A stretch of DNA of 64,000 nt, taken from NCBI GenBank assembly GCA_023150875.1, contig JAKLKC010000005.1, forward strand, positions 62,001 through 126,000, written 5' to 3'. The stretch comes from Myxococcota bacterium. GTDB taxonomy: Bacteria > Myxococcota_A > UBA796 > UBA9615 > JAKLKC01. Shown here one piece after another: positions 41,456 through 62,968 of this stretch; position 1 is the stretch's first letter; every line of letters starts with the position of its first letter. A model generated the notes under the pieces. It saw only the letters and a program-made list of their open reading frames with translations. It made no database searches and was not told the origin of the DNA. The position numbers and the translations under genes are program-made.

Positions 41456-44212
41456 TCAGCAGCCCGCCCCCGGCAGTACCGCCGGGTCCGAGTCGTCGCA
41501 GTCGCCGCACCGGTCCGTCCACCCGTCCCCGTCCAGGTCGTCTCCGGAGTCGACGCAGAACAGCACGCCCCGGTGGTCCAGGTCGAAGGGGTCGGCCCCT
41601 GCCGTGAACACCTCGTAGACCGCCCCCTCGGTACCCCGCCCCACCCCCAGCGAGCCCGGCGCCGCGACCGCCGCCGAGAGGTCGGTCTCCGGCACCGTGC
41701 CCCCCGGGGTGCAGCTCCACCCCACCAGGCCGTCGCTGGCCGCCACCGAGCCGAAGTGGGCCGACAGGCGGCCGTCGGCGCGGAACACCAGGGTGAAGGT
41801 GTTCTCGTCCGCGGGGTTGAGCTGCGACACCTCGATGAAGTGGACCGACACCGCGTCCTCGTGCTGCACCCAGGCGATGGTGCCCGTGTCCCCCTTCAGG
41901 TCGTCCCACAGGCCGGCGACACTGTCCACCTCGGTGGTGCTCAGGAACTCCGACGAGGACTCGCTGTAGTCGGTGTCGATCCCATTGAAGGTGACGCGCC
42001 CGTTGGAGATCACCCAGCCCGAGGCGTGGTCCGCCCCGCAGAAGGGGAAGCGGAAGCCGCCGACGAAGACCATCTCCCCCGCCGTGTCGTCCCCCAGCAT
42101 GTCGAGGACGACGGGGAGTTCGGGGTCGTCGCCGTCGATGGCGCCGTCGCAGTCGTCGTCCAGGCCGTTGGCGTCGTCCTCCCAGGCGTAGGGGTAGACG
42201 GCGGGGTCCGCGTCGTCGCAGTCCCCGTCGCAGGCGGGGATCCCGTCGCCGTCGAGGTCGGAGCCGTCGACCGTGGGATCGGTGTCGTCGCAGTCCCCGT
42301 CGCAGGCGCTCTGGCCATCGCCATCGGCGTCCAGGCCGTGGACGGCGGGATCGGTATCATCGCAGTCGTTCCCCCCGCAGGAGGCGGCGTCGTCGCCGTC
42401 CCCGTCGGAGTCGGCCAGGAGGTCGGGATCGTCCCCGTCCACCGCGCCGTCGCAGTCCTGGTCGACGCCGTCGCAGGTCTCGGCTGCCCCGGGGTGGATC
42501 GAGGCCGCCAGGTCGTCGCAGTCCCCGCCACAGGCGGTGGTGCCGTCGCCGTCGAGGTCGGCGCCCCCGTCCTCGTCCACGGCGCCGTCGCAGTCGTCGT
42601 CCACCCCGTCGCACCCCTCGGGGGCTCCGGGGCGGCGGTCGGGATCGGCGTCGTCGCAGTCGCCGCCGCAGGTCGCGTAGCCGTCTCCGTCGGCGTCGAA
42701 GCCCTCGTCCACGCCTCCTTCGCAGTCGTCGTCCACGCCGTTGCACGTCTCCGCCGCGTCGGGGTTCACCGCCGCGGACCCATCGTCGCAGTCGCCGCCA
42801 CAGGTCGTGTAACCGTCCCCGTCGGCGTCGTAGCCCTCGTCCACGGCGCCGTCGCAGTCGTCGTCCCTCCCGTCGCACGACTCGGTGCGCCCGGGGTTGG
42901 TGCCGGGACGGGTGTCGTCGCAGTCCCCCCCGCAGGTGGTGTATCCGTCCCCGTCGACGTCGTGCCCCTCGTCCACGACGTCGTCACAGTCCTGGTCCAC
43001 TCCGTCGCACGCCTCCGCCCGGCCGGGGTAGAGGTCGGGATCGGCGTCGTCGCAGTCGCCGTTGCACACGGTGACGCCGTCCCCGTCGACGTCGTGCCCG
43101 TCGTCCACCGCGCCGTCGCAGTCGTCGTCCCGCCCGTTGCACGTCTCGGTCGCGCCGGGGAAGACCAGGTTCCGCGCGTCGTCGCAGTCCCCCCCGCAGG
43201 TGGTGTATCCGTCTCCGTCGGCGTCGAAGCCCTCGTCCACCGCGGCGTCGCAGTCCTGGTCCACCCCGTCGCAGACCTCCGCCGCGCCGGGCCGGATCCC
43301 GGGGTCGGCGTCGTCGCAGTCGGTGTCGCAGGCGTAGCCGTCTCCGTCCCCGTCCAGGCCGTCGTCCACCACCCCGTCGCAGTCATCGTCGATGCCGTCG
43401 CAGGTCTCGACCGCGCCAGGGTTTGTCGACGCGGTGCCGTCGTCGCAGTCGCCGCCGCAGGTCGTGTATCCGTCTCCGTCGGCGTCGAAGCCCTCGTCCA
43501 CCGCGCCGTCGCAGTCGTCGTCCCGGCCGTCGCACGTCTCGGCCACGCCGGGGTTCGCCGCCGCCGCGGCGTCGTCGCAGTCCCCCCCGCAGGTCGTGTA
43601 TCCGTCCCCGTCCTCGTCGAAGCCGTCGTCGACGGTGCCGTCGCAGTCCTGGTCCACCCCGTCGCACGTCTCCGCCGCCCCGGGGGCGATGTCGGACCTC
43701 CCGTCGTGGCAGTCCCCCTCGCACGGCGTGTATCCGTCTCCGTCGGTGTCCAGGTCCGTCCCCTCGTCGACCTCGCCGTCGCAGTCGTCATCCCGGCTGT
43801 TGCACTGCTCCGGCGCGTCGTCGTGGACCGCGGGATCGCCGTCGTCGCAGTCGCCGGCGATCTCGCCGGGGCACGACGCGTCGTCCAGGTGGCCGTCGCC
43901 GTCCCCGTCGAAGTCCTCGTCCACGAGGCCGTCGCAGTCGTCGTCCCGGGTGTTGCACTCCTCGGGGGCGCCCGGGTACACCTCCGCGCGGTCGTCGTTG
44001 CAGTCCACGTCCGAGGTGTAGCCGTCTCCGTCCCGGTCGTCGGGGGAGACGTCGTCGTCGGCCGTGTCGTCGTCGGCCGTGTCGTCGTCGGCGGCGGTGT
44101 CGTCGTCCTGGGTGGCGTCGTCGTCGTCGGCCTGCGGGGTGGGCGCGCACGCGGCGAGGAGCAGGAGCGCCAGCAGGGGCGTCAGCGGTCCGGTCGTTCG
44201 GCGTGGGGACAT
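41456..44212 (-). CDS. Large MopE-repeat lipoprotein with DDDT linker
   Basis: A 918-residue lipoprotein: lipobox LAAC (Cys22), an acidic stalk of DDDAT/DDDTA units (residues about 28-53), then about fifteen MopE-type repeats between residues 55 and 690, most of the strict form DxDGDGYTTCGGDCDD...PGxxETCDGxDDDCDGxVDEG. A beta-sandwich of about 170 residues follows (FVGGFRFPFCGADHASGWVISNGRVTFNG, GTIAWVQHEDAVSVHFIEVSQL), reminiscent of nidogen-like or PEP-CTERM-style outer domains, and a last repeat ends the chain (LDGDGWTDRCGDCDDSDPAVLPG). The ATG at 44210-44212 follows GGAGCATCG. It probably binds many calcium ions at the surface; ligand unknown. Confidence 0.82.
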   Translation of the reverse strand: MSPRRTTGPLTPLLALLLLAACAPTPQADDDDATQDDDTAADDDTADDDTADDDVSPDDRDGDGYTSDVDCNDDRAEVYPGAPEECNTRDDDCDGLVDEDFDGDGDGHLDDASCPGEIAGDCDDGDPAVHDDAPEQCNSRDDDCDGEVDEGTDLDTDGDGYTPCEGDCHDGRSDIAPGAAETCDGVDQDCDGTVDDGFDEDGDGYTTCGGDCDDAAAAANPGVAETCDGRDDDCDGAVDEGFDADGDGYTTCGGDCDDGTASTNPGAVETCDGIDDDCDGVVDDGLDGDGDGYACDTDCDDADPGIRPGAAEVCDGVDQDCDAAVDEGFDADGDGYTTCGGDCDDARNLVFPGATETCNGRDDDCDGAVDDGHDVDGDGVTVCNGDCDDADPDLYPGRAEACDGVDQDCDDVVDEGHDVDGDGYTTCGGDCDDTRPGTNPGRTESCDGRDDDCDGAVDEGYDADGDGYTTCGGDCDDGSAAVNPDAAETCNGVDDDCEGGVDEGFDADGDGYATCGGDCDDADPDRRPGAPEGCDGVDDDCDGAVDEDGGADLDGDGTTACGGDCDDLAASIHPGAAETCDGVDQDCDGAVDGDDPDLLADSDGDGDDAASCGGNDCDDTDPAVHGLDADGDGQSACDGDCDDTDPTVDGSDLDGDGIPACDGDCDDADPAVYPYAWEDDANGLDDDCDGAIDGDDPELPVVLDMLGDDTAGEMVFVGGFRFPFCGADHASGWVISNGRVTFNGIDTDYSESSSEFLSTTEVDSVAGLWDDLKGDTGTIAWVQHEDAVSVHFIEVSQLNPADENTFTLVFRADGRLSAHFGSVAASDGLVGWSCTPGGTVPETDLSAAVAAPGSLGVGRGTEGAVYEVFTAGADPFDLDHRGVLFCVDSGDDLDGDGWTDRCGDCDDSDPAVLPGAGC

Positions 44213-44329
44213 CGATGCTCCGGTGCGGGCCGCCCGGGGGGCGGGGGACAGGGGCACGGCGGCGATGGGAGGATAGACTACCCCGGCCCACCGGGGGGAG
44301 CGCGACGGCCGGCGTCCGGACGATCCCGT

Positions 44330-45469
44330 TCAGATCGCCCTCCGGGACGCCTCTCGGACGCCCATGGCCCCTTGCCAGGCCCGGGCGAGGGCCGGGCCGA
44401 CGGCGTCCCAGGTCAGCCCCGCCATCACCCTCCCCCGGGCCGCGGGGTGAGGGCCCGCCTCCCACGCCCGGGTCACCGCGGCGGCGATGGAGCGGGGGTC
44501 CCCGGGATCGCACGGGAGCACCGCGTCCCCCAGCAGGTCCGCCGCGTAGCCCGCGGTGGTGGACACCAGGGCGCAGCCCTGGAGCGCCGCCTCCAGGGTC
44601 ACCCGCCCCACGGACTCCGCCCAGCTCGCCAGGACGTGGACCCTCGCCCCCGCCATGGCCGAGCGCACCATCTCCGGCGGCTGGTAGCCGAGCCAGACGG
44701 TCCTGCCCGGGCTCGTCCGGGCGGCGAGGCGCTCCACGTAGCCGCGGTGGCGGGGGTTCCCCGGCCCCACCAGCACCAGGGGCAGGCCCGTGGGCTCCAG
44801 GGCGTCGATGACCCCCAGGGGGTTCTTGAGGTCCTCGATGCGTCCCACGCACAGCACGAACGGGCCCGGGACCCCGGCCAGCCGGCGCGCGGGGCCGGGG
44901 TCCGCGGGGGGCGCCGCGGGCACCGCCGTGGGGACCACCGCCGACGGGACCGAGCCCGGGTCCAGGCCCGTGGCCCGCAGCAGCTCCCGCTCCTCCCGGG
45001 GGCAGGTGAAGGTCGCCATGGAGGCCCAGCGCAGCAGGTCCCGACGCTGCTCCGCCCACCCCGGGACCCCCCGGAGCAGCCCCCGCTGCGCGGGATCCAC
45101 CACCCGGAGCACCGCCCGGCGGCACGCCTCCGCCGCCTCCTCGGAGCCGGCGAGGCGGGCCACCGCGCCGGCCAGGCCCCGCCGCCCCTCCCGCAGGTAG
45201 CGGCCGAGGTCGTGGTGCAGGGGGGTGAGGACCACCGGCACGCCGCGAGCCCGCGCGGCTCGGGCCTGGGCCCAGGCATCCTGGGGGCGGGTGACGTTCC
45301 AGACGTGCACCAGGTCCACCCCCCGCAGGTCCCCCGGGACGCCCGCCTCCACCCTCACCCGGAATCCCAGGCGCTCCCCCGCCTCCGCCGCCTCCCGGGC
45401 GTGCAGCACGTCGCCGCCGGGCCGGCGCTCCACGTCCGCCCGCAGCAGGACCAGCACCGTGGCGCTCAC
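44330..45469 (-). CDS. GT-B fold glycosyltransferase (family 4-like)
   Basis: A 379-residue protein whose GTG start (45467-45469) overlaps the upstream stop as GTGA. The N-terminal half has VLVLLRADVERRPGGDVLHAREAAEAG and VDLVHVWNV, the C-terminal half has the donor-binding domain: FVLCVGRIEDLKNPLGVIDALE, RTVWLGYQPPEMVRSAMAGARVHVLASWAESVGRVTLEAALQGCALVSTTAG, where the Glu pair ESVGRVTLEAALQG is the typical EX7E motif of retaining GT4 enzymes. It transfers a sugar from a nucleotide donor, substrate unknown. It is the last gene of the glycan operon 44330-51215. Confidence 0.85.
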   Translation of the reverse strand: MSATVLVLLRADVERRPGGDVLHAREAAEAGERLGFRVRVEAGVPGDLRGVDLVHVWNVTRPQDAWAQARAARARGVPVVLTPLHHDLGRYLREGRRGLAGAVARLAGSEEAAEACRRAVLRVVDPAQRGLLRGVPGWAEQRRDLLRWASMATFTCPREERELLRATGLDPGSVPSAVVPTAVPAAPPADPGPARRLAGVPGPFVLCVGRIEDLKNPLGVIDALEPTGLPLVLVGPGNPRHRGYVERLAARTSPGRTVWLGYQPPEMVRSAMAGARVHVLASWAESVGRVTLEAALQGCALVSTTAGYAADLLGDAVLPCDPGDPRSIAAAVTRAWEAGPHPAARGRVMAGLTWDAVGPALARAWQGAMGVREASRRAI

Positions 45470-46443
45470 CGCGACGGGTCCCGGGCCGCCGCCCCCGCGC
45501 CGTACCCCGGGCCATCCGCCGACAGGAGCACTTCCAGGGGCTGCCGCGTCCACCGCGCCATCGCCCACCACCCCGAACGCCCCCCGGGGCGCTCCGCCAG
45601 GCCCCTCGCCACGCAGGCGGCCGTCAGGGACAGCCGCAGCAGCTCGGCGCGCCCCGGGCCGAGGTCCCGCAGCGCCCACCGGAGCAGCGCCCCCCAGACT
45701 CGCTGCCGCCTCTCGGGCGTCCAGTTGGGGTTCCCGGCGTGGGGGATGGGCGGCGCGCCCACCTGGGCCACCAGGGCTCCCCGGGCCCGAGCCCGCGCGC
45801 ACAGCTCCAGGTCGGTCCCGTAGGCCCAGAAGGACTCATCGAAGCCCTGGACCTCCCTCAGGAAGCTCGTCCGCCCCGCCAGCGCCGCCCCCAGCAGCCA
45901 ACCGGCGGGGGCGATCCGCCCCGGAGAGGGAGGCCCCATCGCCCGCCGCACCACCCCGCCAGCGAACCGGCCCCGGAGGGTGGGCACGGCGAACGAGGAG
46001 GGCTGGGGGCTGCCGTCGGGGTTCACCATGGGCAGCCCCAGCAGCACCGGGCCCGGATGGCGGTCGAAGGCGTCCACGAGGGCGACCAGGGCGGCCGCGT
46101 GGGGGCGCGTGTCCGGGTTCAGGAAGAGCACCAGCGGCGCCCGGACGCGGGCGAGGCCGGCGTTGTTCCCGTGGGAGTACCCGACCTCCACCGGGGAGTG
46201 GATCCGCTCCACCCCGGGGAAGGCGGCGCACACCTCGGCGGTCCGGTCCCGGGACGCGTTGTCGAACACCACCACCTGGAGCGGGAACGGCGGGGGATCG
46301 GACTCCAGCGCGGCGAGACATCCCTGGAGCTGCTCGGCGTCGTCCCGCGTGAACACCACCACCGACAGCCGGGGCAGCGCGCCCGCGGGCAGGCCCAGGC
46401 GCTCGGCCAACGGGATCGACGGAGATCCATCCGCTCGGGACAT
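45466..46443 (-). CDS. GT-A fold glycosyltransferase (family 2, rhamnosyltransferase-like)
   Basis: A 325-residue inverting glycosyltransferase: LSVVVFTRDDAEQLQGCLAAL, VVVFDNASRDRTAEV, the donor/metal motif LVLFLNPDTRPH (DxD-like NPDT as in dTDP-rhamnosyl transferases), LGAALAGRTSFLREVQGFDESFWAYGTDLELCARAR with the catalytic-base region ESFWAYGTDLELC. C-terminal helices may associate with the membrane. The gene is 12 bases from the fusion gene before it and overlaps the next by four bases, so all belong to one operon. Confidence 0.88.
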   Translation of the reverse strand: MSRADGSPSIPLAERLGLPAGALPRLSVVVFTRDDAEQLQGCLAALESDPPPFPLQVVVFDNASRDRTAEVCAAFPGVERIHSPVEVGYSHGNNAGLARVRAPLVLFLNPDTRPHAAALVALVDAFDRHPGPVLLGLPMVNPDGSPQPSSFAVPTLRGRFAGGVVRRAMGPPSPGRIAPAGWLLGAALAGRTSFLREVQGFDESFWAYGTDLELCARARARGALVAQVGAPPIPHAGNPNWTPERRQRVWGALLRWALRDLGPGRAELLRLSLTAACVARGLAERPGGRSGWWAMARWTRQPLEVLLSADGPGYGAGAAARDPSR

Positions 46444-46455
46444 CGCCGGGGCGTC

Positions 46456-49197
46456 CTATCCGCGGTCGGGAAGCGGGGGGTCCGGAGGGAGGGCCTGGGC
46501 CAGGCCCTGGAGGACGCGACGCTCCCAGGGCGCCAGCTCCGCCATCCTCCGGTGGGTCGCCATGTTGCGCCCCAGGTCGTCGCAGCTCTTCTCGCAGCCG
46601 CACGCGGCGCCGGGGTCGTTGCCGATGAGCTGGAAGAAGGGGTCGCGCTTCTCGACGACCCGCGTCTTCCGCCGGAAGTACCGCTGCTTGGGGCCGTTCC
46701 AGATCTCCGGGAAGCGGTTCTCGTGGAGGTTGCCGACGGGGATCCGGTGCGACTTGAGACAGGACGTGATCCTGCCGTCGGGCATGACCCGGGCGAAGGT
46801 CCACCCGATGGAGCACGGGAAGGTGTGGACGATGTTCGCGTCGGCGTTGCCCACCACCGCGTCGGGGGTCGAGATCCGTCGGAGCCACTGGTCGTAGTTG
46901 TACAGGACCCCCTCCAACCCCCGCCGGGCCAGCCGCTCCCGCACCCGCAGCGAGTCGCGGTGGAGGCGCTGCCTCTGCTCCTCGTCGAAGAGGATGGCGT
47001 CGGTCGCCCCGGGGATGGTGTCCACGACGGTGAACTCCACCCACTCCGAGCCGGTGTCCAGGACGAAGTCCACCATCTCCTCCATCTCGTGGCAGTTGAT
47101 GGTGGAGACGACGTGATACACTTTTATCAGCGGCTTGTCGCGCTTCCGGCGGTTCAGCTCCGTCAGGGCCCTCTTGAGACGCTGGAACTGCTCCTCGGTC
47201 TTGTTGGGGTGCGTCCGGGCGTACGCCTCGCCGGTACCCGCCCACACCGAGACCGTCATCTCGTCCAGGCCCAGGTCCAGGACCCGGTCCAGGACCGGCC
47301 CCTCGACGAGGTTGAAGTTGGTGTTCACGTAGCAGTACATCCCCGCCTTCTTGATCACGTCGATCACGTCGAGGATGCGGGGGTGGACGAAGGGATCCCC
47401 GCCCCCCGCCAGGTAGACCTCCTTGGTCCCCATGGCGGCGACGTCGGCGACGAGCTGGCAGATCAGCTCGAAGGGGAGCTGCTTGCGCTTCTCCTCCTCC
47501 GGCGGGGCGTGCTCGTTGAGCAGGGGAGAGTGGAGCCAGCAGGCGATGCAGTCGTTGTTGCAGCGGTTGGTGATGTCGAGCTGGAGCAGGTAGGGGCCCG
47601 TGAAGGCGTGCTCTCCGTGGAGGATCCCCAGCAGCTCCCGCCTCTCGTCCACGTATCCCCGCAGCGCGTCGGGCAGGCCCCTGACCTCCCGCGGCGAGAT
47701 CTGGGGCCTCCTGGGCGGCGGGCGCACCCCGGCGAAGGGCTTGAGGGAGGGGTCCCGGCGCCGGGCCAGACCGGCGGGCCCCGCGTCCACCGCCGTGCCC
47801 GCCGCTCCGGCGAGGCCGTCCGCCGCCGCGGCCCCGAGGGGGAAGCCCAGCCCCACTCCGGCCCGCTCCCCGTCGGGGACGCCGCCGTCGGCAAGCAGGT
47901 CGGCGTCCACGGCGATGTGGGCCCCCGCCAGGACCACCGCCGGGGACTCGGCCACCGGGTGGGCCGGGCGGACCTCGTCACCCGCGGGGCCCCGGCCGCG
48001 GACCGGGGGGCGGCCCTCGGGGGAGAGGCCGTGCAGGGCGAGGCCCAGGCGGTAGGACGCCAGCATCCTCATGGCCGTCGCCCCCCACGAGAAGGTCGAC
48101 TCCGCCCTCTCCCGGGCCAGGCGCTCCAGGGAGCGCCGCTCTTCGGGGTGGTCGAAGAGCCAGGCGATCCCCCGGGCGAGGTCGGGCACCGAGCCGGGCT
48201 CCACCAGCAGGCCGCAGCGGCCGTGCTCCACCATCTCCACCGCCTCCCCCACCCGGCTGACCACCATCGCCTTGCCCGCCGCCAGGTACTCGACGACCTT
48301 CAGGGGGCTCTTGGTGCGGACCTGGGGGGTGTCCTCGAAGCAGGCGACGGCGACGTCGGCGGCGGCCATCCAGTCGGCGACGTCCTCGTGGGGGACCGAG
48401 CCGGTGAAGACCAGCGACTCCCCCAGGCCCAGCTCCCCGGCGATCCGGTGGAGGTCCTTCTCGCGGCTGCCGGACCCCACGACGGCGAACCGGGCGTCCG
48501 GATGGGTGCGGAGCACCTCCGCGGCGGCCCGCACGAAGAGGTCGGCGTACTGCGCGTTGTGGAGCTGGCCGACGTACAGGGCGAGGGGTGCGTCCCCGAA
48601 GCCGGCGGCGGCCCGCATGCGGCCCCGGTCGCGTCCGGGCCGGAAGCGGGCGAGGTCGGCCCCCACCGGGGCCCAGGCGATCCGCTCGTCGGGCACCCCG
48701 AGGGCCCTGGCCTGCTCCCGCAGCGCGGCGCTGGCCACCGAGACGGTGTCGGCGATCCGCGGCAGCGCCCGCTCCAGGCGGTCCAGGCGGGCGGCGACGG
48801 CGGGGTCGTGGGGACCGGAGCGGTAGATCTCCGCCTCCCAGTCGTCCCAGTCGTAGTGGAGCGGCACCCCCCGCAGGTAGGCCGCCGTCGCCGCGGGCAG
48901 GGAGACGTGGGAGAAGCACTTCTGGAAGTGGATCACGTCCGCCCAGCGGGCGAGCTGGGTCATCGTCGCCAGCTTCTTGAGCCCGAACCGGGCGTGCCGG
49001 ACCTGGGGGACGACCTCGAAGGGGAACTCCTGGCGCGTGGCGGCGACCTCGGGGGTCACCTCGGGCCGGGCGAGGTGATAGACCAGCTTCACCTCGCAGC
49101 CGGCGTGACACAGGGCGGTGGCGACGGAGGTGATCCGCACGGTCCACGGCTCCAGCGGCTCGTAGATGTCGTGGGGATGGATCATCAGGACGCGCAT
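46456..49197 (-). CDS. Fusion: GT4 glycosyltransferase::radical SAM/SPASM enzyme
   Basis: One uninterrupted frame of 913 codons. Residues 1-395 are a GT4-type glycosyltransferase (MIHPHDIYEPLEPWTVR, LALYVGQLHNAQYADLF, KSPLKVVEYLAAGKAMVVSRVGEAVEMVEHGRCGLLV). A low-complexity Ala/Gly linker of about 100 residues follows. From about 535 a radical SAM domain begins: LQLDITNRCNNDCIACW, with the cluster cysteines C546, C550 and C553 (CX3CX2C), then GTKEVYLAGGGDPFVHPR (the GGxP-like SAM motif). The C-terminal 150 residues carry further cysteines (TFPCSIGW, ITSCLKSHR, GAACGCEKSCDDLG), as in SPASM domains with extra iron-sulfur clusters. It probably modifies a sugar, lipid or peptide substrate in the pathway. 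Confidence 0.85.
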   Translation of the reverse strand: MRVLMIHPHDIYEPLEPWTVRITSVATALCHAGCEVKLVYHLARPEVTPEVAATRQEFPFEVVPQVRHARFGLKKLATMTQLARWADVIHFQKCFSHVSLPAATAAYLRGVPLHYDWDDWEAEIYRSGPHDPAVAARLDRLERALPRIADTVSVASAALREQARALGVPDERIAWAPVGADLARFRPGRDRGRMRAAAGFGDAPLALYVGQLHNAQYADLFVRAAAEVLRTHPDARFAVVGSGSREKDLHRIAGELGLGESLVFTGSVPHEDVADWMAAADVAVACFEDTPQVRTKSPLKVVEYLAAGKAMVVSRVGEAVEMVEHGRCGLLVEPGSVPDLARGIAWLFDHPEERRSLERLARERAESTFSWGATAMRMLASYRLGLALHGLSPEGRPPVRGRGPAGDEVRPAHPVAESPAVVLAGAHIAVDADLLADGGVPDGERAGVGLGFPLGAAAADGLAGAAGTAVDAGPAGLARRRDPSLKPFAGVRPPPRRPQISPREVRGLPDALRGYVDERRELLGILHGEHAFTGPYLLQLDITNRCNNDCIACWLHSPLLNEHAPPEEEKRKQLPFELICQLVADVAAMGTKEVYLAGGGDPFVHPRILDVIDVIKKAGMYCYVNTNFNLVEGPVLDRVLDLGLDEMTVSVWAGTGEAYARTHPNKTEEQFQRLKRALTELNRRKRDKPLIKVYHVVSTINCHEMEEMVDFVLDTGSEWVEFTVVDTIPGATDAILFDEEQRQRLHRDSLRVRERLARRGLEGVLYNYDQWLRRISTPDAVVGNADANIVHTFPCSIGWTFARVMPDGRITSCLKSHRIPVGNLHENRFPEIWNGPKQRYFRRKTRVVEKRDPFFQLIGNDPGAACGCEKSCDDLGRNMATHRRMAELAPWERRVLQGLAQALPPDPPLPDRG

Positions 49198-49241
49198 CGA
49201 CTCACCGGGACGCCGGCCCGAGGGCCGGGACGGGGCTCGCT

Positions 49242-51215
49242 CTACAGATTGCCCTTGGCCTCACCCACCCACAAGCGGATCAGCTCCGCCGCCCCGGGCG
49301 CCCGGCCCACCGCGCCCCCCAGCCGCTGGAGGGGGCGGGTGGCCGCCCCGCCGGAGACCGGAGGAGGAGGAGCCTCGGGTTCGGGCCCGCGGGGGGGAGC
49401 GGGACCGGGCCCCCCCTCGGGGGGAGGGACCGGGCCGGGGGGAGGCGGCGCTCCGGCCTGCCCCCTCGCCCGCCGCACCGCCAGCCGCCAGGCCGGAGTG
49501 CCCTGGATCTCGTGGAGGTCCCGCTCCACGTTGCCCAGGTGCTCCCGGAGGACCCTCTCCTGCCCGGCGACCTCGTCCCTCTCGCGGCACACCTCCGCCA
49601 CCCGGGACTGGAGGGAGGCCCTCTCCCCCAGGAGCCCCTCCCTCTCCCCCTGGAGCCCCTCCACCCTGCGGCTCAGGCCGTCGATCTCCCGCAGCAGCAC
49701 CTGTCGCTCCTCCCGGGCCGCGTCGTCGCGGCGGGAGAGGTCCTCGATGGTGCGCGCCTGCTCCTGGATCCTCCGGGCCAGGTCCCTCTTCTCGTCCTCG
49801 GAGCGCTCCCCCCGGGCGCGCTCGGCCCGCAGGTCGTCCTCGGCCAGCACCGCCAGGCGGTCCCGCTCGGCCCGGGCGACCCGGGCCTCCTCCTCGGCCA
49901 CCGCCAGCCGCCGGTCGGCGTCCAGGGCCCGCCGCTGCATCTCGGCCCGGTCGGCGTCCCAGGCGGCCTGGGCGGCGGCGCGGTGCTCCTCGGCCTGGCG
50001 TCGCACCAGGTCCAGCTCGGCACGGGCGAGGGCGATCCGGGCCCCGGTCATCTCGTGGAGGGCGGTGGGTCCCCGCCTCCTCCGGGGGAGGTCCTGGAAG
50101 AAGGGCAGCGCGGGCTCGACCACCGCCTCGGCGCGGTGGCGGTCCAGGAACAGGCGGCGGGCGTTGCGGGCCCGGGCCGCCACCTTTCGGGGGCTGCGGG
50201 CCAGCTCGGACACCAGCTCGGCGATCCCGCCGCGGTCGGCGGGGTCGACGGTCCACCCGGCCTGGGCGTCCTCGATCTCCCGGGCCATCTCGCCGTCCCG
50301 GGCGTAGATCACCGGCAGGCCCGCCCAGAGGTACTCCACGGTGCGGGTGGTGATGGCGAGGCGCCGCTCGGGGTTGTCGCGGTACACGTCCAGGGCGACG
50401 GTGCCCTCCCGGATCAGCGCCTCGCGGTAGAGGGCGTGGGGCAGGGCTTCCCGCACCCGGGCGCGGGCGCGGCCGGCCAGCGCGGCCTCCACCCGGGGCC
50501 AGGGGCTCTCCCCGCCGTCGACGTCCCCCAGGAGGGAGGCGCCGGGGGTGGAGAGGTACACGTCCAGGGCGGCGTCCCCGTCGCCTTCCAGCCCGTCGGC
50601 GGCGCCCAGGAGGGCCGCCTCGGAGTCGATCCACGGCCACCTCGCCCCCCCGTAGACGAGGCGGAAGGGGCCTCCGCCCGTGGCGCGGGGGGGAGGGGCC
50701 TCCGGGAGCCCGAGGGGGACGACGCTGACGGGCAGCCGCCGCGGGTCGTGGCCGGCAAGCACCAGGAAGGCCGAGAACCAGTCCCTCTGGCGCTCGCCGG
50801 GGACCAGGACGTGGTCGGCCCGGTGGAGGGCGGCGACCTTCGCCGCGAGGTCCGGGGCGAGGCGGCTCTCGGGGCGGCGGAAGAGGTTCTCGAGGGTGAG
50901 GGAGCCGTGGAGGTCTACGGCGACGGGGAGATCGACGTCGGGGAGGTGGGAGGCCAGGGCCCACTGCTCCACCAGCAGGGCGTCCGGGGACACGCGGGCG
51001 ATGGTCTCCAGCAGGGAGCCCGGGGTGAAGGCGAGGGCGCGGAGGGCCTCGGGGGCACCGGCGGGGAGGGCGCGGGCGTCGACGGCGTGGAGGACGCGGT
51101 GCCCGTGGGCGGCGAGGCCCGCGCCCAGGGCACCGATCCTCAGCCCGCCCCCGGACGCCGGGTGGTCGGGCAGCGGCGGCGGGTCCGAGGAGATGCACAG
51201 GACCGTGCGGCGCAT
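49242..51215 (-). CDS. Glycosyltransferase with long C-terminal coiled coil
   Basis: A 657-residue protein. Residues 1-380 are a GT-B glycosyltransferase (VLCISSDPPPLPDHPASGGGLRIGALGAGLAAHGH, ADHVLVPGERQRDWFSAFL, RTVEYLWAGLPVIYARDGEM, AGWTVDPADRGGIAELV). Residues about 395-565 are a continuous heptad-like coiled coil (RAELDLVRRQAEEHRAAAQ, EEEARVARAERDRLAVLAEDDLRAERARGERSEDEKRDLARRIQEQ), followed by the short motif GTPAWRLAVRRAR common at the end of such glycan-assembly glycosyltransferases, and a Pro-rich tail. The coiled coil may organise a complex or measure chain length. ATG at 51213-51215 is preferred; a GTG eight codons upstream is possible. It begins the glycan operon. Confidence 0.82.
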   Translation of the reverse strand: MRRTVLCISSDPPPLPDHPASGGGLRIGALGAGLAAHGHRVLHAVDARALPAGAPEALRALAFTPGSLLETIARVSPDALLVEQWALASHLPDVDLPVAVDLHGSLTLENLFRRPESRLAPDLAAKVAALHRADHVLVPGERQRDWFSAFLVLAGHDPRRLPVSVVPLGLPEAPPPRATGGGPFRLVYGGARWPWIDSEAALLGAADGLEGDGDAALDVYLSTPGASLLGDVDGGESPWPRVEAALAGRARARVREALPHALYREALIREGTVALDVYRDNPERRLAITTRTVEYLWAGLPVIYARDGEMAREIEDAQAGWTVDPADRGGIAELVSELARSPRKVAARARNARRLFLDRHRAEAVVEPALPFFQDLPRRRRGPTALHEMTGARIALARAELDLVRRQAEEHRAAAQAAWDADRAEMQRRALDADRRLAVAEEEARVARAERDRLAVLAEDDLRAERARGERSEDEKRDLARRIQEQARTIEDLSRRDDAAREERQVLLREIDGLSRRVEGLQGEREGLLGERASLQSRVAEVCRERDEVAGQERVLREHLGNVERDLHEIQGTPAWRLAVRRARGQAGAPPPPGPVPPPEGGPGPAPPRGPEPEAPPPPVSGGAATRPLQRLGGAVGRAPGAAELIRLWVGEAKGNL

Positions 51216-51403
51216 GGGGCCTCGCTCCGGGGTGGACACCGCCGCATCCTAGCAAATCCGCGGCGGATCTCCCCTCCGGGACGGCGCTTTCCGCACCCGG
51301 GCCTCACGTCCCGCCCCCTCGGGCCGATGAGCGGTGAGGGTGGGAAGGCCAGGGGCCCGCGGGACCGTCCCCTCCGGTGGGGTCGGCGCCCGCCCCCGAG
51401 GAA
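51216..51403. other. Divergent intergenic region of the glycan operon
   Basis: 188 bases between the glycan operon (minus) and the sensor-like gene (plus). A TAGGAT (complement of 51248-51253) is a possible -10 for the operon, and ATCCGCGGCGGAT (51257-51269) is a short palindrome nearby that could be an operator. Weak evidence only. Confidence 0.3.
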
Positions 51404-56482: not shown

Positions 56483-58570
56483 TCAGGGCATCCGGATCGT
56501 CGCCAGCCGGCGGACCTTCACGTCCGAGCCGATCTCCAGGTTGGAGATCACCGGGATCGCCGAGAGGGTCCGCTCCAACAGCCGCCGCAGGGGGGCGCGG
56601 AGGGGGGCGCCCACCAGCAGGACCACCGATCCGTCCCCCTGGGGGGTCTTCTCGACCTCGGCGGCGATGCGACGTACCAGCTCCTGGTAGAGCCCGGGGT
56701 CGATGGCGAGGGTCTGGCCCCCCTCGGGCAGGGGTTGGAGGGCCCTGCGGAGGGACTCCTCCACCGGAGGAGCCAGGGTCACGCAGCGCACCTGGCCGTC
56801 GGAGTCCCGCACCGAGGCGGAGATCTGCCGCGCCAGTCGCCGCCGGGCGAACTCGGTGAGGACTTCGGGGTCCTTGGTGTCGGGAGCGTGGTCCGCCAGG
56901 GCCTCCAGGATCCCCAGCAGGTTGCGGATGCTCACCGACTCCCGCAGCAGGTTCCGGAGCACCTTCAGCACCGTGCCCAGGGGCAGCAGCGCCGGGATCA
57001 GCTCGTCCACGACCTTGGGGTGGGTCTTGGCGAGCTGGTCGATGAGGGTCTGGAGCTCCTGCCGGCCCACGAACTCGGCGCAGTGCCTCTTCACGACCTC
57101 GCTCAGGTGGATCGAGAGCACCGTCACGGGGTCCACCACCGTGTAGCCCGCGGCGATGGCCGCCCCCCGCTGGCCCTCGGTGATCCAGAGCGCCGGGAGC
57201 CCGAACGCCGGCTCCTTGGTGGCGATCCCCTGGATCGGCCTCCGGACCCCGCCGGGGTCCATGGCGAGGACGTGGTGGACCATCAGCTCCCCCCGCGCCA
57301 CCTCCGCCCCGTGCAGCAGCACCAGGTACTCGGTCTGTTTCAGCGACAGGTTGTCGCGGATGTGGATGGGGGGCACGATCACCCCGTGGGTCCGGGCGAA
57401 CTGCCGTCGCATCTTCTGGATCCGCTCGGTCAGATCTCCCCCCCGGCGGTCGTCCACCATGGCCAGCAGGTCGAAGCCGACCTCCATCTCCAGGGTCTCC
57501 ACGGCGACGACGTCGCCGGGCTCGATCTGGGAGGGGGAGGAGTCCTTGCGGGGCGCCTTCTCGCCCCGGGACTGGGCGCGGCGCTCCTCCGCCTCCCTGG
57601 CCTCGGCCCGGCGCTCCGCCGAGAACGCGGCGCCCGCCGCAAGGGCCGCCATCCCCAGGAAGGGCAGCCGGAAGCCGGGGATGGCGACGAAGCAGAGCAG
57701 CACTCCCGAGAGCACCCACAGGGCCCGGGGCCGCCCCAGGAGCTGCTGGCCCAGGTCCTGCTCCAGCCCCCCGCCGCCGGTCACCCGCGTGACCAGGAGG
57801 CCCGCCGCCACCGAGACGATCAGGGCCGGCACCTGGGAGACCAACCCGTCTCCGACGGTGAGGATCGTGTAGTTCCTGGCCGCCTCCCCGACGGGCATCC
57901 CCCGCTGGACCACGCCGATGACCAGGCCGCCCACGATGTTGATGGCGGTCACGGCGAGGCCGGCGACGGCGTCCCCCCGGATGAACTTGCTCGCCCCGTC
58001 CATGGCGCCGTAGAAGTCCGCCTCCAGCGCCACGTCCTTGCGCCGCCGCCGCGCCTCCGCCTCGGTGATGGCGCCGGCGTTGACGTCGGCGTCGATGGAC
58101 ATCTGCTTGCCCGGCATGGCGTCCAGGGTGAAGCGGGCGGTCACCTCGGCGATCCGGCCCGCCCCCTTGGTGATGACCGCGAAGTTGATCACCACCAGGA
58201 TCACGAAGGTGATCAGGCCGACGACGAAGTCGCCCCCCACCATGAACTCGCCGAAGGTGTGGATGAGCTGGCCCGCCGACTCGGTCCCCTGGTGGCCCCG
58301 CAGCAGGATCAGGCGGGTCGAGGCGACGTTCAGGCCCAGGCGGAACAGGGTGGTGACCAGCAGCAGGGTCGGGAAGACCGAGAAGTCCATCGGCTCCCGG
58401 ACATAGAAGGTGACCAGGAACACCATCAGCCCGACGGCGATGCTGAGGGTGAGGGCCAGGTCCAGCACCAGGGGCGGGAGGGGGACGACGATGGGGAGCA
58501 GCACGCCGATGAACACCAGCGCCCAGGCCGAGTCGGCGTAGCTCCGGCGGGCGGGCGCGGGCGCGCTCAC
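56483..58570 (-). CDS. flhA: Flagellar export apparatus protein FlhA
   Basis: A 695-residue membrane protein of the flagellar type III export gate. The N-terminal half has about eight transmembrane helices and the FHIPEP signature region TARFTLDAMPGKQMSIDAD around residues 145-165; the cytoplasmic half (from about 340) is the substrate-docking platform (IQKMRRQFARTHGVIVPPIHIRDN, PALWITEGQRGAAIAAGYTVVDPVTVLSIHLSEVV, LRNLLRESVSIRNLLGILEALAD). Family length and order are normal. The start is a GTG at 58568-58570, 16 bases from flhB. Part of the fliM-flhA operon. Confidence 0.96.
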   Translation of the reverse strand: MSAPAPARRSYADSAWALVFIGVLLPIVVPLPPLVLDLALTLSIAVGLMVFLVTFYVREPMDFSVFPTLLLVTTLFRLGLNVASTRLILLRGHQGTESAGQLIHTFGEFMVGGDFVVGLITFVILVVINFAVITKGAGRIAEVTARFTLDAMPGKQMSIDADVNAGAITEAEARRRRKDVALEADFYGAMDGASKFIRGDAVAGLAVTAINIVGGLVIGVVQRGMPVGEAARNYTILTVGDGLVSQVPALIVSVAAGLLVTRVTGGGGLEQDLGQQLLGRPRALWVLSGVLLCFVAIPGFRLPFLGMAALAAGAAFSAERRAEAREAEERRAQSRGEKAPRKDSSPSQIEPGDVVAVETLEMEVGFDLLAMVDDRRGGDLTERIQKMRRQFARTHGVIVPPIHIRDNLSLKQTEYLVLLHGAEVARGELMVHHVLAMDPGGVRRPIQGIATKEPAFGLPALWITEGQRGAAIAAGYTVVDPVTVLSIHLSEVVKRHCAEFVGRQELQTLIDQLAKTHPKVVDELIPALLPLGTVLKVLRNLLRESVSIRNLLGILEALADHAPDTKDPEVLTEFARRRLARQISASVRDSDGQVRCVTLAPPVEESLRRALQPLPEGGQTLAIDPGLYQELVRRIAAEVEKTPQGDGSVVLLVGAPLRAPLRRLLERTLSAIPVISNLEIGSDVKVRRLATIRMP

Positions 58571-58586
58571 GGGACTCGTCCCCCCA

Positions 58587-59681
58587 TCATCGCGTCGCTC
58601 CCAGGGTCCGGTCGCCCCTCAGACCGCGGACCCGTTGGACGAAGGCCATGACCTCGGCCACGGCCTGGTACAGGTCCTCGGGGATCTCCCTCCCCTCCCG
58701 GCCGGTCTTCCACAGGAGCCGCGCCAGGGGGCGGTTCTCCACCCGGGGGATCCCCTTCTCCCGGGCCAGCCTCTTGATCTGCTCGGCCCGGGCGTCGACC
58801 CCCATGGCGGTGATGACCGGCGCCCGGTGGCGCCCCATCACGTAGGCCAGGGCGATGGCGAAGTGGTCGGGGTTGGTGACGATCACGTCCGCCTCGGCGA
58901 TGGCCGCCACCAGCCGGTTCCCGCTGGCCAGGGAGCGGTGGACCTGCCGCCGCCTCCCCTTGATCTGGGGGTTCCCGTCGTCCTGCTTCAGCTCCTCCAA
59001 CAGCTCCTGGCGCGTCATCCGCATCTGCTTCTGGTTGGACCAGCGTTGGAACAGGTAGTCGGCGGCGGCCAGCACCCCCAGCAGGACGCAGGCGACCTTC
59101 ACCATCCGGGAGACCGCCTCGCCCGCCACGGCGAGGCTGGACTCCAGGGGCTGGGACATCATCCGGGGGAGGTCGCCCACGAAGGGGCTGAGGGCCAGGC
59201 CGGCGGCGACCCCCAGCAGCACCGCCTTGAACAGCCCCTTCAGGGCCTCCACCAGGGCCCGGAGGGACAGGAGGCGCCCGAAGCCGGCGACGGGATCGAC
59301 CCGGTTCCAGTCCGGCGCCACCGCCTTCCCCGAGAAGTTGCCCCGGGTCTGGGCGAGGGAGATCGCGCCCCCGGCGAACCCGGTGGCCAGCACCAGGCCC
59401 CCCGCGCCCGAGACCACGGCGGAGGACGCCTCCACGAACAGCACCCGAGGGTCGGCCAGGGCCGCTCCGGGGTCGGCGAGCCGCCCGATCCACCGGCGGA
59501 AGCCGTCCTCCAGGGCGGAGAGGACCCCGGGGAGGGTCAGGCTGCCCACCACCCACGCCCCCAGGAGGCCGGCGACGGCGGCCGCGTCCCGGCTGAAGGC
59601 GATCTGCCCCTTCTCGCGGAACTCCCGCTCCCGCTTGGGGGTCGCCTGTTCGGTCTTCTCGGCGTGGGAGGCGTCGGCCAT
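58587..59681 (-). CDS. flhB: Flagellar export switch protein FlhB
   Basis: A 364-residue protein with four transmembrane helices and a cytoplasmic tail, which switches export specificity from rod/hook to filament proteins. Family landmarks: KTEQATPKREREFREKGQIAFSRD at the N-terminus, RMTRQELLEELKQDDGNPQIKGRRRQ, and the autocleavage site, which here reads TNPDHFAIAL (Asn270-Pro271-Asp272-His273) instead of NPTH; Asn and Pro, the residues needed for cleavage, are kept. A longer-than-usual C-terminal tail follows. Start ATG at 59679-59681. Between fliR (7 bases upstream) and flhA. Confidence 0.96.
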   Translation of the reverse strand: MADASHAEKTEQATPKREREFREKGQIAFSRDAAAVAGLLGAWVVGSLTLPGVLSALEDGFRRWIGRLADPGAALADPRVLFVEASSAVVSGAGGLVLATGFAGGAISLAQTRGNFSGKAVAPDWNRVDPVAGFGRLLSLRALVEALKGLFKAVLLGVAAGLALSPFVGDLPRMMSQPLESSLAVAGEAVSRMVKVACVLLGVLAAADYLFQRWSNQKQMRMTRQELLEELKQDDGNPQIKGRRRQVHRSLASGNRLVAAIAEADVIVTNPDHFAIALAYVMGRHRAPVITAMGVDARAEQIKRLAREKGIPRVENRPLARLLWKTGREGREIPEDLYQAVAEVMAFVQRVRGLRGDRTLGATR

Positions 59682-59688
59682 CGGCGCC

Positions 59689-60477
59689 TCAGTCCCCCGG
59701 GGCGACGGACAGGGCCGCCGCGGCCATGGCGTCCCCGGTCCACGACGCCGCCCGGGTCATGGCCGGCCCCGCCACCACCAGCAGGCCGAGGCCCGCCGCG
59801 AGGCTGAAGGCCGCCCCGATGGCGAAGTAGGGGTTCATCTGGGGCGAGGTCCGGGCCAGCAGGGCCGTCCAGAGGTTCACCACCAGCATCGCCAGCACCA
59901 CCGGGGCGCCCAGGCGGACCCCGGCGGCGATCATCTCCGCCCCGAGGCGGGTCAGGCCCAGGGCCTCCGCCGCCCGGGGCAGCCCCTGCCCCGCGGGCAT
60001 GGGGCCATAGGAGCGGGCCAGGGCGGCGATCAGGCCGTGGTGGGCGTTGGAGGCGAGGAGGGCGAGGGAGGCGATGGTGACCTGGAGGCGGGGGAGGATC
60101 CCCTCGCTCTCCTGGCTGTGGGGGTCGAAGAGCTGCACGGCGTCGAGGCCGACGGCGACCTCGACGAACGAGGCCGCCACCTGGATGGCGAGGAACACCA
60201 GGCGGGCGGCCAGGCCCATGGCCAGCCCGACGCCCACCTCGGCCACGGCGGCGGAGGCGGCGGCCAGGGATCCGGGCTCGGGCACGTCGCCCACGCCGTC
60301 GCGGGCGAAGGGGTAGAGCACGAACGCCAGCGCCCCCGCCCCCGCGAGCCTCGCCCGCAGGGGGACACCGGGGCCCCCCAGCACGGGGGCGGTCATCAGG
60401 AAGGCGCCCGCCCGCAGGAAGGCAAGGGCCACCACCAGGACGGCGTGGAGGTCGATGGCGAGGGTGGCCGCGTTCAC
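59689..60477 (-). CDS. fliR: Flagellar export gate protein FliR
   Basis: A 262-residue membrane protein of the export gate with about six helices: LAFLRAGAFLMTAPVLGG, ASAAVAEVGVGLAMGLAARLVFLAIQVAASFVEVAVGLDAVQLFDP, the conserved region LRLGAPVVLAMLVVNLWTALLARTSPQMNPYFAIG, and a final hydrophobic segment. The GTG start (60475-60477) overlaps the fliQ stop by four bases. Together with FliP and FliQ it forms the core gate of the apparatus. Confidence 0.94.
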   Translation of the reverse strand: MNAATLAIDLHAVLVVALAFLRAGAFLMTAPVLGGPGVPLRARLAGAGALAFVLYPFARDGVGDVPEPGSLAAASAAVAEVGVGLAMGLAARLVFLAIQVAASFVEVAVGLDAVQLFDPHSQESEGILPRLQVTIASLALLASNAHHGLIAALARSYGPMPAGQGLPRAAEALGLTRLGAEMIAAGVRLGAPVVLAMLVVNLWTALLARTSPQMNPYFAIGAAFSLAAGLGLLVVAGPAMTRAASWTGDAMAAAALSVAPGD

Positions 60478-60740
60478 GGTCCCACCGAGATCATGGCGAA
60501 GAGGCGGGCGGTGAACTCCACCAGCTCCTGGATCATGAACCCACCCAGGCCCAGCAGCATCGCGAAGATCGCCAGGATCTTGGGCACGAAGGAGAGGGTG
60601 GCCTCGTGGACCTGGGTGGCGGCCTGGAGCAGGCTGACCGCGAGCCCCACCAGCATGGAGGCCGCCAGGAGCGGTCCCGCGACGGTGAGGACCATCAGGA
60701 TCGCCTGCCGGGAGATCTCCAGGGCGGTCTCGGGTGTCAC
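60474..60740 (-). CDS. fliQ: Flagellar export gate protein FliQ
   Basis: An 88-residue membrane protein with two helices (MVLTVAGPLLAASMLVGLAVSLLQAATQ and KILAIFAMLLGLGGFMIQELVEF) and the typical ALEISRQAILMVL N-terminus. Length equals the family. The start is a GTG at 60738-60740. It overlaps fliR by four bases and lies 58 bases downstream of the FliO::FliP gene. Confidence 0.95.
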   Translation of the reverse strand: MTPETALEISRQAILMVLTVAGPLLAASMLVGLAVSLLQAATQVHEATLSFVPKILAIFAMLLGLGGFMIQELVEFTARLFAMISVGP

Positions 60741-60798
60741 GTCAGGGGCCCCCGGCCCGCGAGGGTTGCGGCCGCCGGCTGCGGCTGGTCCCCGGGCC

Positions 60799-62712
60799 TC
60801 ACGGACCGAACCCCCGCACCAGGGAGCCCACGGTGAGGTTCCAACCGTCCACCATCACGAAGAGGAGGAGCTTGAACGGAAGGGAGATCATCGCGGGCGG
60901 CAGGACCATCATGCCCATGGCCAGCAGGGTGGTGGCGACGATCATGTCCACCACCAGGAACGGGATGTAGATCAGGAACCCGATCTCGAAGGCCGTCTTG
61001 AGCTCGCTGATGATGAAGGCCGGGATCAGGGTGGCGCTGGGGACCTCGTCCCGGGTCGCGGGGCGGGTGGACGACGACAGGCCCAGGAAGAGCTCCAGGT
61101 CCGCCTTGCGGGTGTGGCGGAACATGAACTCCCGGACGGGGGTCATGGCGCGGCCCAGGGCCTCCTCCTCGCCGATGCTGCCGGACTGGAAGGGGACCAG
61201 GGCGTCCTCGTTCACCCGCGTCATCACCGGGCTCATGATGAACCAGGTGAGGAACAGGGCCAGCCCGACGAGGACCTGGTTGGGCGGGGTGTTCTGGATC
61301 CCGATGGCCTGTCTCAGGAAGCTGAACACCACGATGAGACGGGTGAAGCAGGTGAGGGTGATGAGCAGCGCCGGCGCCAGGCTCATCACCGTGAGCAGCA
61401 CCACGATCCGTGTCGCCAGGGAGGGTGTGACCGTCTCGCGGATCACGGGGGCGAGGCTGAGCTCCGGGTCCCCCGCCGCCAGGGCCCATCCCGGCGCGGC
61501 CAGGCATGCCACGGGGATGGCGAGGAGCAGCAGGGTGGCGATCCACGGGGGGCGGCGCACCCGGGGGGCGTCGGCGACCGGAGCGCCGCCCGCGGGGTTC
61601 CGGGGCGGGGCGGCGGCCTCCGGGCGGGAGGGAGGCGCAGGGTCGGGCTCCGCGCTGGCCCGGGCACGCTCCCGGGCGCGCCTCACCTCGTCCATGGCCT
61701 TGCGGGCGGCCCGGGTCCACTCCCCCTTCGGCTCCGCCTGCGCCCCCTCGTCGGCGACCTCGAACATGGGATCCCGGGGGCGAGCCGCCGCGGGCGGGCG
61801 GTCCCGACGGGCGTGGGTGCCGTCCCGCGGTGACGGCGCCGGGCCACGGGGCGGGATCGGGCCGGGCTCCACCTCGTCCCAGCGGACCTCGACGTCCTCG
61901 GAGGCGAGGCCCTCCCCGGCGCCGGGGGACTCCTCCCACGAGGTCAGGAGGTCCACCCTCTCGGGGCCGATCCCCACGACGAGGGTGCGGTGGTGGACCC
62001 GGAGGAGCGCCACGCCCGCGCGGGCGTTCAGCATCCTGAGCCCCCGCAGCTCCAGCCCGTCCCCCCGGCCCGGGAGGACCCGGGTGGTCCGGAGCCACGC
62101 CGCGAGCCAGGCCGGCGCCCGGGGCGAGGCGGCCGTGGCGCGGAGGGCCAGGGCCAGCCCCGCCACCAGCGCCAGGCCCAGCAGGATCCGGCCCAGCGCA
62201 CCCAGGGAGAGCGCCGTCGCCCCCGCTCCCTCCGGGGCGGGGACCGGCGCCGGAGCCGGCGCGAGCAGGGGATCGGCGGGGGGCGGCGGGGCGGCGACCG
62301 GCTCGGCCCCTGCGGACGCCAGGGCGGCGGCGACGTCGGCGGGAAGGGGCTCCAGGGCCGGCGCCCGGGCGGGCGGCGGCGCCGGGGCGGGCTCCCGGGG
62401 AGGCGACGCGACCGTCCGGCTCCCCCGGGAGGCCCCGCGCCACGCCCTCCGGGGGGCGGGACCGGCCACCTCGCCCGAGGCCCCGCCGGCGGCGGCCCGG
62501 GCGACCGACGGCTCCCCCACCGGGGGCAGCGGGGTCGGAGCCGCGATCCCCTCGGGGGACGCCGACGCGACCCGAACCACCCCCTCCCCTCCCTCCACGA
62601 CGGTGGGGACCTCTCCACCGGGAGCGTGCCCCTCCTGGGCCCACGCCGCCCCCGACACCATCCAACCTACCGCCGCCAACCAGGCCGCCCGCCTCCAACT
62701 CCCGACCTCCAT
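60799..62712 (-). CDS. FliO::FliP fusion protein of the flagellar export apparatus
   Basis: One frame of 637 codons from the ATG at 62710-62712 (GGAGGATGC before it). Residues 1-26 are a signal-like helix, 27-165 a Pro/Ala-rich stretch, about 165-190 a transmembrane helix, then the FliO cytoplasmic domain (RTTRVLPGRGDGLELRGLRMLNARAGVALLRVHHRTLVVGIGPERVDLL). After a polar linker, residues about 385-637 are FliP: an internal signal-peptide-like helix (LLLLAIPVACLAAPGWALA), LLITLTCFTRLIVVFSFLRQAIGIQNTPPNQVLVGLALFLTWFIM, SELKTAFEIGFLIYIPFLVVDM and the C-terminal VDGWNLTVGSL. Normally fliO and fliP are separate. The frame is open further upstream: a second start at 62958 would add a His/Glu/Gly-rich leader (see findings). 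Confidence 0.88.
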   Translation of the reverse strand: MEVGSWRRAAWLAAVGWMVSGAAWAQEGHAPGGEVPTVVEGGEGVVRVASASPEGIAAPTPLPPVGEPSVARAAAGGASGEVAGPAPRRAWRGASRGSRTVASPPREPAPAPPPARAPALEPLPADVAAALASAGAEPVAAPPPPADPLLAPAPAPVPAPEGAGATALSLGALGRILLGLALVAGLALALRATAASPRAPAWLAAWLRTTRVLPGRGDGLELRGLRMLNARAGVALLRVHHRTLVVGIGPERVDLLTSWEESPGAGEGLASEDVEVRWDEVEPGPIPPRGPAPSPRDGTHARRDRPPAAARPRDPMFEVADEGAQAEPKGEWTRAARKAMDEVRRARERARASAEPDPAPPSRPEAAAPPRNPAGGAPVADAPRVRRPPWIATLLLLAIPVACLAAPGWALAAGDPELSLAPVIRETVTPSLATRIVVLLTVMSLAPALLITLTCFTRLIVVFSFLRQAIGIQNTPPNQVLVGLALFLTWFIMSPVMTRVNEDALVPFQSGSIGEEEALGRAMTPVREFMFRHTRKADLELFLGLSSSTRPATRDEVPSATLIPAFIISELKTAFEIGFLIYIPFLVVDMIVATTLLAMGMMVLPPAMISLPFKLLLFVMVDGWNLTVGSLVRGFGP

Positions 62713-62968
62713 GCATCCTCCACGGGCCCCTCCCGGCCCCCCCCTCGCCTCCCCCGTCATCCCGCGCCCGTGCCCGTGCCCGCGCCCGAGCCCGCGCCCG
62801 TGCCCGTGTTCGTGCCCGTGTTCGTGCCCGTGTTCGTGCCCGTGTTCGTGCCCGTGTTCGTGCCCGTGCCCCTGTTCGTGCCCGTGCCCGTGTTCGTGTT
62901 CGTGTTCGTGTTCGTGCCCCCGCCCGCGCCCGCCCGCCTCGAATATCCCGGGATGCATCACCACCTCC
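62713..62968 (-). other. Gap between fliN and the FliO::FliP gene, possible alternative N-terminus
   Basis: 256 bases that are in frame with the FliO::FliP gene without a stop. Near the fliN end an ATG (62956-62958) follows GGGAGGTGGTG, a near-perfect ribosome site, and only 10 bases separate it from the fliN stop. If used, it adds 82 residues (MHPGIFEAGG, then a HEHG-type repeat, then MTGEARGG). Otherwise the stretch is a non-coding repeat spacer. See the repeat feature and findings. Confidence 0.5.
62761..62938. repeat. GTGCCC/GTGTTC tandem repeat (12-base period)
   Basis: Plus strand units are CGTGCCCGTGTT repeated about five times without change, flanked by CGTGCCCGTGCCCGCGCCC and GTGTTCGTGTTC variants. 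On the minus strand in the FliO::FliP frame it spells His-Glu-His-Gly units. The unit length keeps the frame open whatever the copy number. Confidence 0.9.

Follow-up and report, generated by a model that had tools for sequence, protein, structure and literature searches.

A covalent GT4 glycosyltransferase-radical SAM fusion with a putative role in the tailoring of exported surface glycans

We identified a gene at 46456..49197, on the minus strand of the window (the whole 64,000-nucleotide stretch of Myxococcota bacterium DNA that was analyzed), that encodes a GT4 glycosyltransferase and a twitch-type radical SAM enzyme in one chain of 913 aa, an architecture supported by Pfam matches and by orthologues. 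From sequence comparisons, we consider it probable, at roughly 55%, that the product is a bifunctional surface-polysaccharide (O-antigen-like) enzyme that would couple sugar transfer to radical tailoring of a glycan exported by an ABC transporter. The first-pass annotation of this DNA had described an uninterrupted frame of 913 codons without naming a strand, and the minus-strand frame indeed has zero internal stops. A plus-strand reading of 46456-49197, where a shadow open reading frame runs from 45739 to 50307 (1522 aa), was rejected, as the homology lies on the minus strand. Pfam placed GT4 domains at residues 20-363, Radical_SAM at residues 542-712, and a SPASM-type match at residues 795-844, and the approximate layout is a GT4 enzyme (residues 1-390), a disordered linker (residues 400-496), and a radical SAM enzyme (residues 500-905). 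No curated NCBIfam model matched the fusion at its cut-off, the best scores being 121.7 of 442 for TIGR04063 and 89.9 of 380 for TIGR04317.

The two halves are joined by a disordered Ala/Gly/Pro linker (residues 397-500; 47698..48009, minus strand) delimited by AF2 pLDDT and coding periodicity. As annotated, this segment is rich in Ala and Gly, and its residues 400-496, at about nt 47710-48000, had pLDDT values of <50 in the AF2 model. The GC3 of the linker was 0.95, compared with 0.98 for the glycosyltransferase part and 0.96 for the radical SAM part, and a stop codon is present in one alternative frame of the linker. The frame is coding along its full length, linker included. The AF2 model of the full chain consists of two confident globular halves on a floppy tether, and its pTM of 0.54 fits two domains joined in this flexible manner.

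The window sequence comes from a single MAG contig, and in one further genome (G004) the halves lie at the ends of two contigs with the break inside the linker, as might be seen if a missed stop, a frameshift, or an assembly error had joined two genes. However, the coding periodicity runs across the linker, and independent full-length fusions exist in other genomes. Two genomes of the same order, G001 and G002, carry one-frame fusions of 858 and 851 aa, with 52% identity and with uninterrupted linkers about 60 aa shorter than that of the window fusion; G005 has fragments of the fusion only. Among 237 genomes drawn from the phylum, matches at 1e-60 were found in the window's own genome, G001, and G002 only. 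A scan of GTDB r220 with one genome per species returned 77 loci (numbered here with the prefix L, genomes with G), and we use RS for homologues of the radical SAM half of the window fusion. Intact GT4::RS frames were present in UBA6601 (L050, the record matching G002), in L052 (the record matching G001), in Wallbacteria (L053, L054, L062, and L117), and in Gpa_5 (L071), and the fusions of the Wallbacteria MAGs and the Gpa_5 MAG are more distant than those of G001 and G002. In L074, the fusion is present with a broken glycosyltransferase frame. Fusions in relatives of the same order, in Wallbacteria, and in Gpa_5 are therefore not an assembly error; these orthologues rule out an artefact or two joined genes, to which we give next to no chance. 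The covalent arrangement is conserved in close relatives, and homologues are always two separate genes, a pattern that the annotation had anticipated as a counterargument, only in the unfused Omnitrophota branch. All fused rows fell on one side of a branch in the glycosyltransferase tree (support, 98/92; one change), and the radical SAM tree needed two changes, with L071 weakly placed. The simplest reading of these trees would be one old fusion that was later spread or lost. No relative was encoded on any viral contig, and no plasmid matched the fusion.

The glycosyltransferase half (residues 1-390; 48028..49197, minus strand) was defined by Pfam, alignment, AF2, and Foldseek and is the full GT4-type enzyme that had been annotated. 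It belongs to the GT4 family, matching PF00534 with an E value of 1.3e-28 and GT4 family profiles with E values of 1e-20 to 1e-30. Its model has a GT-B fold, for which Foldseek gave MshA and BshA as the best structural relatives and also matched SPS. Alignment of the family showed conserved HYDWDDWE and KSPLKxxEY motifs, and in the usual EX7E motif the first Glu is replaced and E303 is retained. The half resembles MshA, BshA, PimB', and HepE, which are retaining GT4 enzymes of the GT-B fold and match it with good coverage, but identity to them is about 20%, and both the HYDWDDWE signature and the fused partner are particular to the window subfamily.

The radical SAM core (residues 533-715; 47053..47601, minus strand; Pfam, AF2, and Foldseek) matched Radical_SAM PF04055 with an E value of 4e-12, and the AF2 model of this half had a pLDDT of 92.8. 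The CX3CX2C cluster motif annotated at C546, C550, and C553 (47539..47562, minus strand) is present and is invariant in the 36 family members (36/36) over which we counted cysteine conservation. The GGE-like SAM-binding motif is G598-G599-G600-[E/D]601-P602, with E in 30/36 members and D in the window protein. By the cluster motif, the GGE-like motif, and the TIM-barrel core of the AF2 model, this half is a member of the radical SAM superfamily, in which similarity does not give function (PMC6231123).

The tail of the protein had been annotated as SPASM-like, a type with two auxiliary clusters that is defined by the seven-cysteine motif CX9-15GX4C...CX2CX5CX3C...C (PMC6231123). The alignment showed instead C795-X12-G-X4-C813 and C868-X3-C872 (46582..46815, minus strand), with C795, C813, and C872 kept in 36/36 members and C868 in 35/36. 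C866 is kept in only 5/36, leaving four conserved cysteines, and therefore the seven-cysteine motif is absent and the SPASM assignment has to be replaced. A twitch domain is a shortened SPASM domain whose ligands, four as in BtrN (PMC9012708), serve one auxiliary cluster, and the tail of the fusion is, judged from its sequence, of this type, with cysteines that suffice for one predicted auxiliary cluster. BtrN, a 2-deoxy-scyllo-inosamine dehydrogenase acting on a sugar-like cyclitol, has in common with the fusion a radical SAM core, one four-cysteine auxiliary cluster (predicted in the fusion), and the CX12GX4C spacing. Unlike the fusion, BtrN is a free-standing protein of about 250 aa, and no close homology between it and the fused radical SAM half was detectable outside the core, the profile match (E value of 1.4e-7) covering the auxiliary region only.

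The Foldseek neighbors of the radical SAM half were PqqE, BlsE, SuiB, CteB, DesII, SkfB, anSME, MoaA, and BtrN. The sugar-acting enzymes BlsE, DesII, and BtrN were among both the profile and the fold matches. BlsE and DesII ranked second and sixth among the fold matches (TM to target of 0.72 for BlsE) and have sugar substrates, but they are 14-18% identical to the fused half and differ in domain composition, and their substrates are a soluble nucleoside or TDP-sugar. The SPASM enzymes PqqE, anSME, and SuiB were the best neighbors, and a Pfam SPASM match spans C795-C813; in contrast to these enzymes, the fused half is without three of the seven SPASM cysteines, an RRE, and a peptide context. 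The presence of the peptide-modifying SuiB, CteB, SkfB, and PqqE among the neighbors would fit a glycosylated RiPP, with a ribosomal peptide matured by the radical SAM half and glycosylated by the glycosyltransferase half. The mycofactocin pathway offers a precedent for a radical SAM enzyme combined with a glycosyltransferase. Set against this, the fusion had no Pfam match to PqqD/RRE, the predicted N terminus of the radical SAM half has short helices only, without an RRE-like fold or strands, and glycosyltransferases and ABC exporters dominate the operons. We regard a RiPP product as highly improbable, and the peptide cross-link that had been listed among the possible reactions is not supported, as an RRE domain was not found and a peptide context was not seen.

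The fusion lies in a minus-strand operon with three other glycosyltransferases, all of them annotated previously. The order is GTX (49242..51239), the fusion, a GT2 glycosyltransferase (45466..46443, 12 bp downstream of the fusion), and a GT4 glycosyltransferase (44330..45802, a mechanical open reading frame whose real start is probably internal), and the gaps around the fusion are at most 45 bp. GTX is a divergent 665-aa protein with a glycosyltransferase-like N terminus and a coiled coil; the window protein had no Pfam match, and its homologue in L050 had a weak Glyco_trans_4_4 match. In L050, L054, and L071, a GTX homologue immediately precedes GT4::RS; in L111, one lies upstream of a truncated GT4 gene, and in L076 and L082 the gene downstream of it is an unfused GT4. 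The gene pair is thus conserved across phyla. Homologues of the window GT4 gene at 44330..45802 lie at most 10 kb from the fusion in L050 and L052. No Wzm/Wzt or B12-type radical SAM genes adjoin the fusion in the window genome; the top matches to Wzt there lie on different contigs. The glycosyltransferase operon is adjoined by a gene for a 933-aa protein with 13 Cu-binding_MopE metal-binding repeats (41456-44257, minus strand), and upstream of it are flagellar-export-like genes (56483-63974, minus strand; FlhA, FlhB, FliR, and FliQ by eye).

An ABC-dependent export locus with Wzm and Wzt, absent beside the window gene, is found in L050, L071, and many Omnitrophota loci. L050 (UBA6601) contains a radical SAM gene, Wzm, Wzt with Wzt_C, GTX, and GT4::RS. 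The genes of L071 (Gpa_5), all in one direction, encode Wzm, Wzt with Wzt_C, a phosphodiesterase, GTX, GT4::RS, RS, RS::B12-rSAM::RS (rSAM, radical SAM), and B12-rSAM::GT2. These are the two loci with canonical export genes beside the fusion. The nearest neighbors of the fusion in G001 are a molybdopterin oxidoreductase and a TPR-kinase, with no glycan operon, and a GT4 gene and a sulfatase-type protein are encoded downstream. The TPR and Ser/Thr protein kinase gene of G001 (L040 10355-12217, plus strand) overlaps the fusion stop.

Where GT4 and RS are unfused, mostly in Omnitrophota, they are encoded in tight operons that also contain genes for one or two B12-type radical SAM enzymes and, in many cases, for a Wzm/Wzt-type exporter. 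An RS homologue was also present in 39 of the 71 loci with the GT4 family, a count that rests on a loose score; at an identity of at least 35%, GT4 and RS homologues lie within 20 kb of each other in about 32 loci, many of them tight operons. The 39 loci include 21 with B12-type A enzymes, 28 with B12-type B enzymes, and 12 with a Wzt-like ATPase. The radical SAM enzymes of the Omnitrophota operons are fused in many combinations; one 1429-aa frame contains three radical SAM modules, and one frame of 1540 aa contains three B12-rSAM modules (L089). Tandem radical SAM megaproteins, with three twitch/SPASM modules in about 1430-1480 aa or three B12-rSAM modules in 1540 aa, were seen in L089 (4150-13043), L086 (2702-7024), L067, and L083, and mixed radical SAM chains of 1716-2192 aa were seen in L071 and L054.

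The Omnitrophota Wzt-like ATPases have a long C-terminal part that is found again on radical SAM proteins encoded in the same operons (blastp E values of 9e-24 to 1e-12). A Pfam scan did not identify this domain, which was present in 17/39 loci with both GT4 and RS versus 0/32 loci with GT4 only; we saw it at L057 4802-7540, L070 1251-4268, and L059 2275-5889. It is a candidate glycan-binding domain, and the occurrence of one module on both the exporter and the radical enzymes is most easily accounted for by a glycan that both of them handle.

Two other explanations of the fusion must be weighed against these neighborhoods. The halves might have no common substrate and be fused as a scaffold within one glycan pathway, the radical SAM half making a nucleotide-sugar or another precursor. 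The linker, which is long and disordered (pTM 0.54), 50-110 aa in the fusion family, and poorly conserved, would suit such a role, as would the differing partners found when the halves are unfused (B12-rSAM::RS fusions), but the two enzymes are found next to each other time and again in different phyla, and the C-terminal domain of the exporter on RS enzymes suggests action on a polymer or a lipid-linked intermediate. We consider scaffolding unlikely. By analogy with HpnI/HpnK/HpnJ, the substrate of the pair might be a membrane glycolipid and not a polymer, with glycosylation followed by radical remodeling, as in the route to bacteriohopanetetrol cyclitol ether. HpnJ acts after the glycosyltransferase HpnI and is thus a precedent for radical SAM remodeling of a freshly transferred sugar (PMC12583986), and the partner B12-rSAM enzymes score best against HpnJ (E values of 1e-65 to 1e-75), below the cut-off. 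However, HpnI, HpnK, and HpnJ are separate proteins, the similarity to HpnJ belongs to the partner enzymes and not to the fused radical SAM half, and the Wzm/Wzt exporter and the exporter domain repeated on radical SAM proteins point to an exported glycan. A glycolipid substrate therefore appears quite unlikely.

The recurrence of GT4 and radical SAM enzymes together in several phyla beside export genes makes radical remodeling of a surface sugar chain during its synthesis probable. The first-pass annotation had proposed that transfer and a radical step on one substrate could be coupled, and side-by-side homologues in the glycan-export operons of other phyla back this part of its proposal. In a bifunctional surface-polysaccharide enzyme, the GT4 half would act on the cytoplasmic side and extend a lipid-linked glycan by a sugar, the tethered radical SAM half would then abstract hydrogen from the added sugar or a neighboring one, and the single auxiliary [4Fe-4S] cluster would take up the electron, as proposed for BtrN. 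We infer that both halves are catalytically active, that they have a common substrate, and that these cytoplasmic steps occur in this order. The exact chemistry can be suggested more tentatively: the net change would most likely be sugar oxidation or rearrangement, perhaps dehydrogenation of the BtrN kind or epimerization. The tailored glycan would then be recognized and exported by a Wzm/Wzt-type ABC transporter, which in the window genome might be one encoded elsewhere.

In ABC-dependent export, O-antigens often carry a modification at the growing end that is read by the exporter, and such chain-end modification licenses export (PMC9445017); the fusion loci L050 and L071 resemble this pathway in their Wzm and Wzt_C genes. 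The caps known from ABC-dependent O-antigens are methyl, methylphosphate, and Kdo. None of these is known to be made by radical SAM enzymes. A possible but doubtful extension is an undescribed polysaccharide pathway common to Omnitrophota, Wallbacteria, and a lineage of the myxobacterial type. There, radical SAM enzymes of the twitch and B12 types, arranged in chains, often tandem- or glycosyltransferase-fused and bearing the exporter's own C-terminal domain, would make a sugar cap by radical chemistry, and this cap would license ABC export.

The window genome has a second GT4::rSAM/SPASM fusion, unrelated to the first and about 900-957 aa long (G000:C105:3774-6470; L009 3771-6641, minus strand), and by a match-table count both of its halves are in one frame in 48/71 genomes of the class. 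Its locus also holds several further radical SAM genes, and at L009 7949-9072 (plus strand) the SPASM-type tail of a radical SAM gene continues in another frame, a frameshift or sequencing error. One operon at G000:C100 (L010 4639-10996) encodes a GT2 glycosyltransferase, a type I phosphodiesterase, an unfused radical SAM paralogue (42% to the radical SAM half of the window fusion), and a B12-rSAM::GT2 fusion (833 aa). As the second GT4::rSAM fusion and the B12-rSAM::GT2 fusion show, glycosyltransferases and radical SAM enzymes are joined repeatedly in the lineage.

The suggestion that the fusion is a new enzyme system holds insofar as full-text literature searches, with incomplete coverage of subscription journals, found no description of either GT4::rSAM fusion, but the fusion is not singular, given the unrelated family in the same class. 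We regard it, from its sequence relationships, as a new covalent and genomic arrangement of known enzyme classes with a putative function. Radical SAM enzymes modify peptides, cofactors, nucleotides, and antibiotic sugars, and the literature searched contained no account of such tailoring for bacterial surface polysaccharides. Through the fusion and its conserved neighborhood, one radical SAM family is linked to one glycosyltransferase and to an export system, and this link offers a substrate class that can be tested for enzymes otherwise carrying only the annotation "radical SAM/SPASM."
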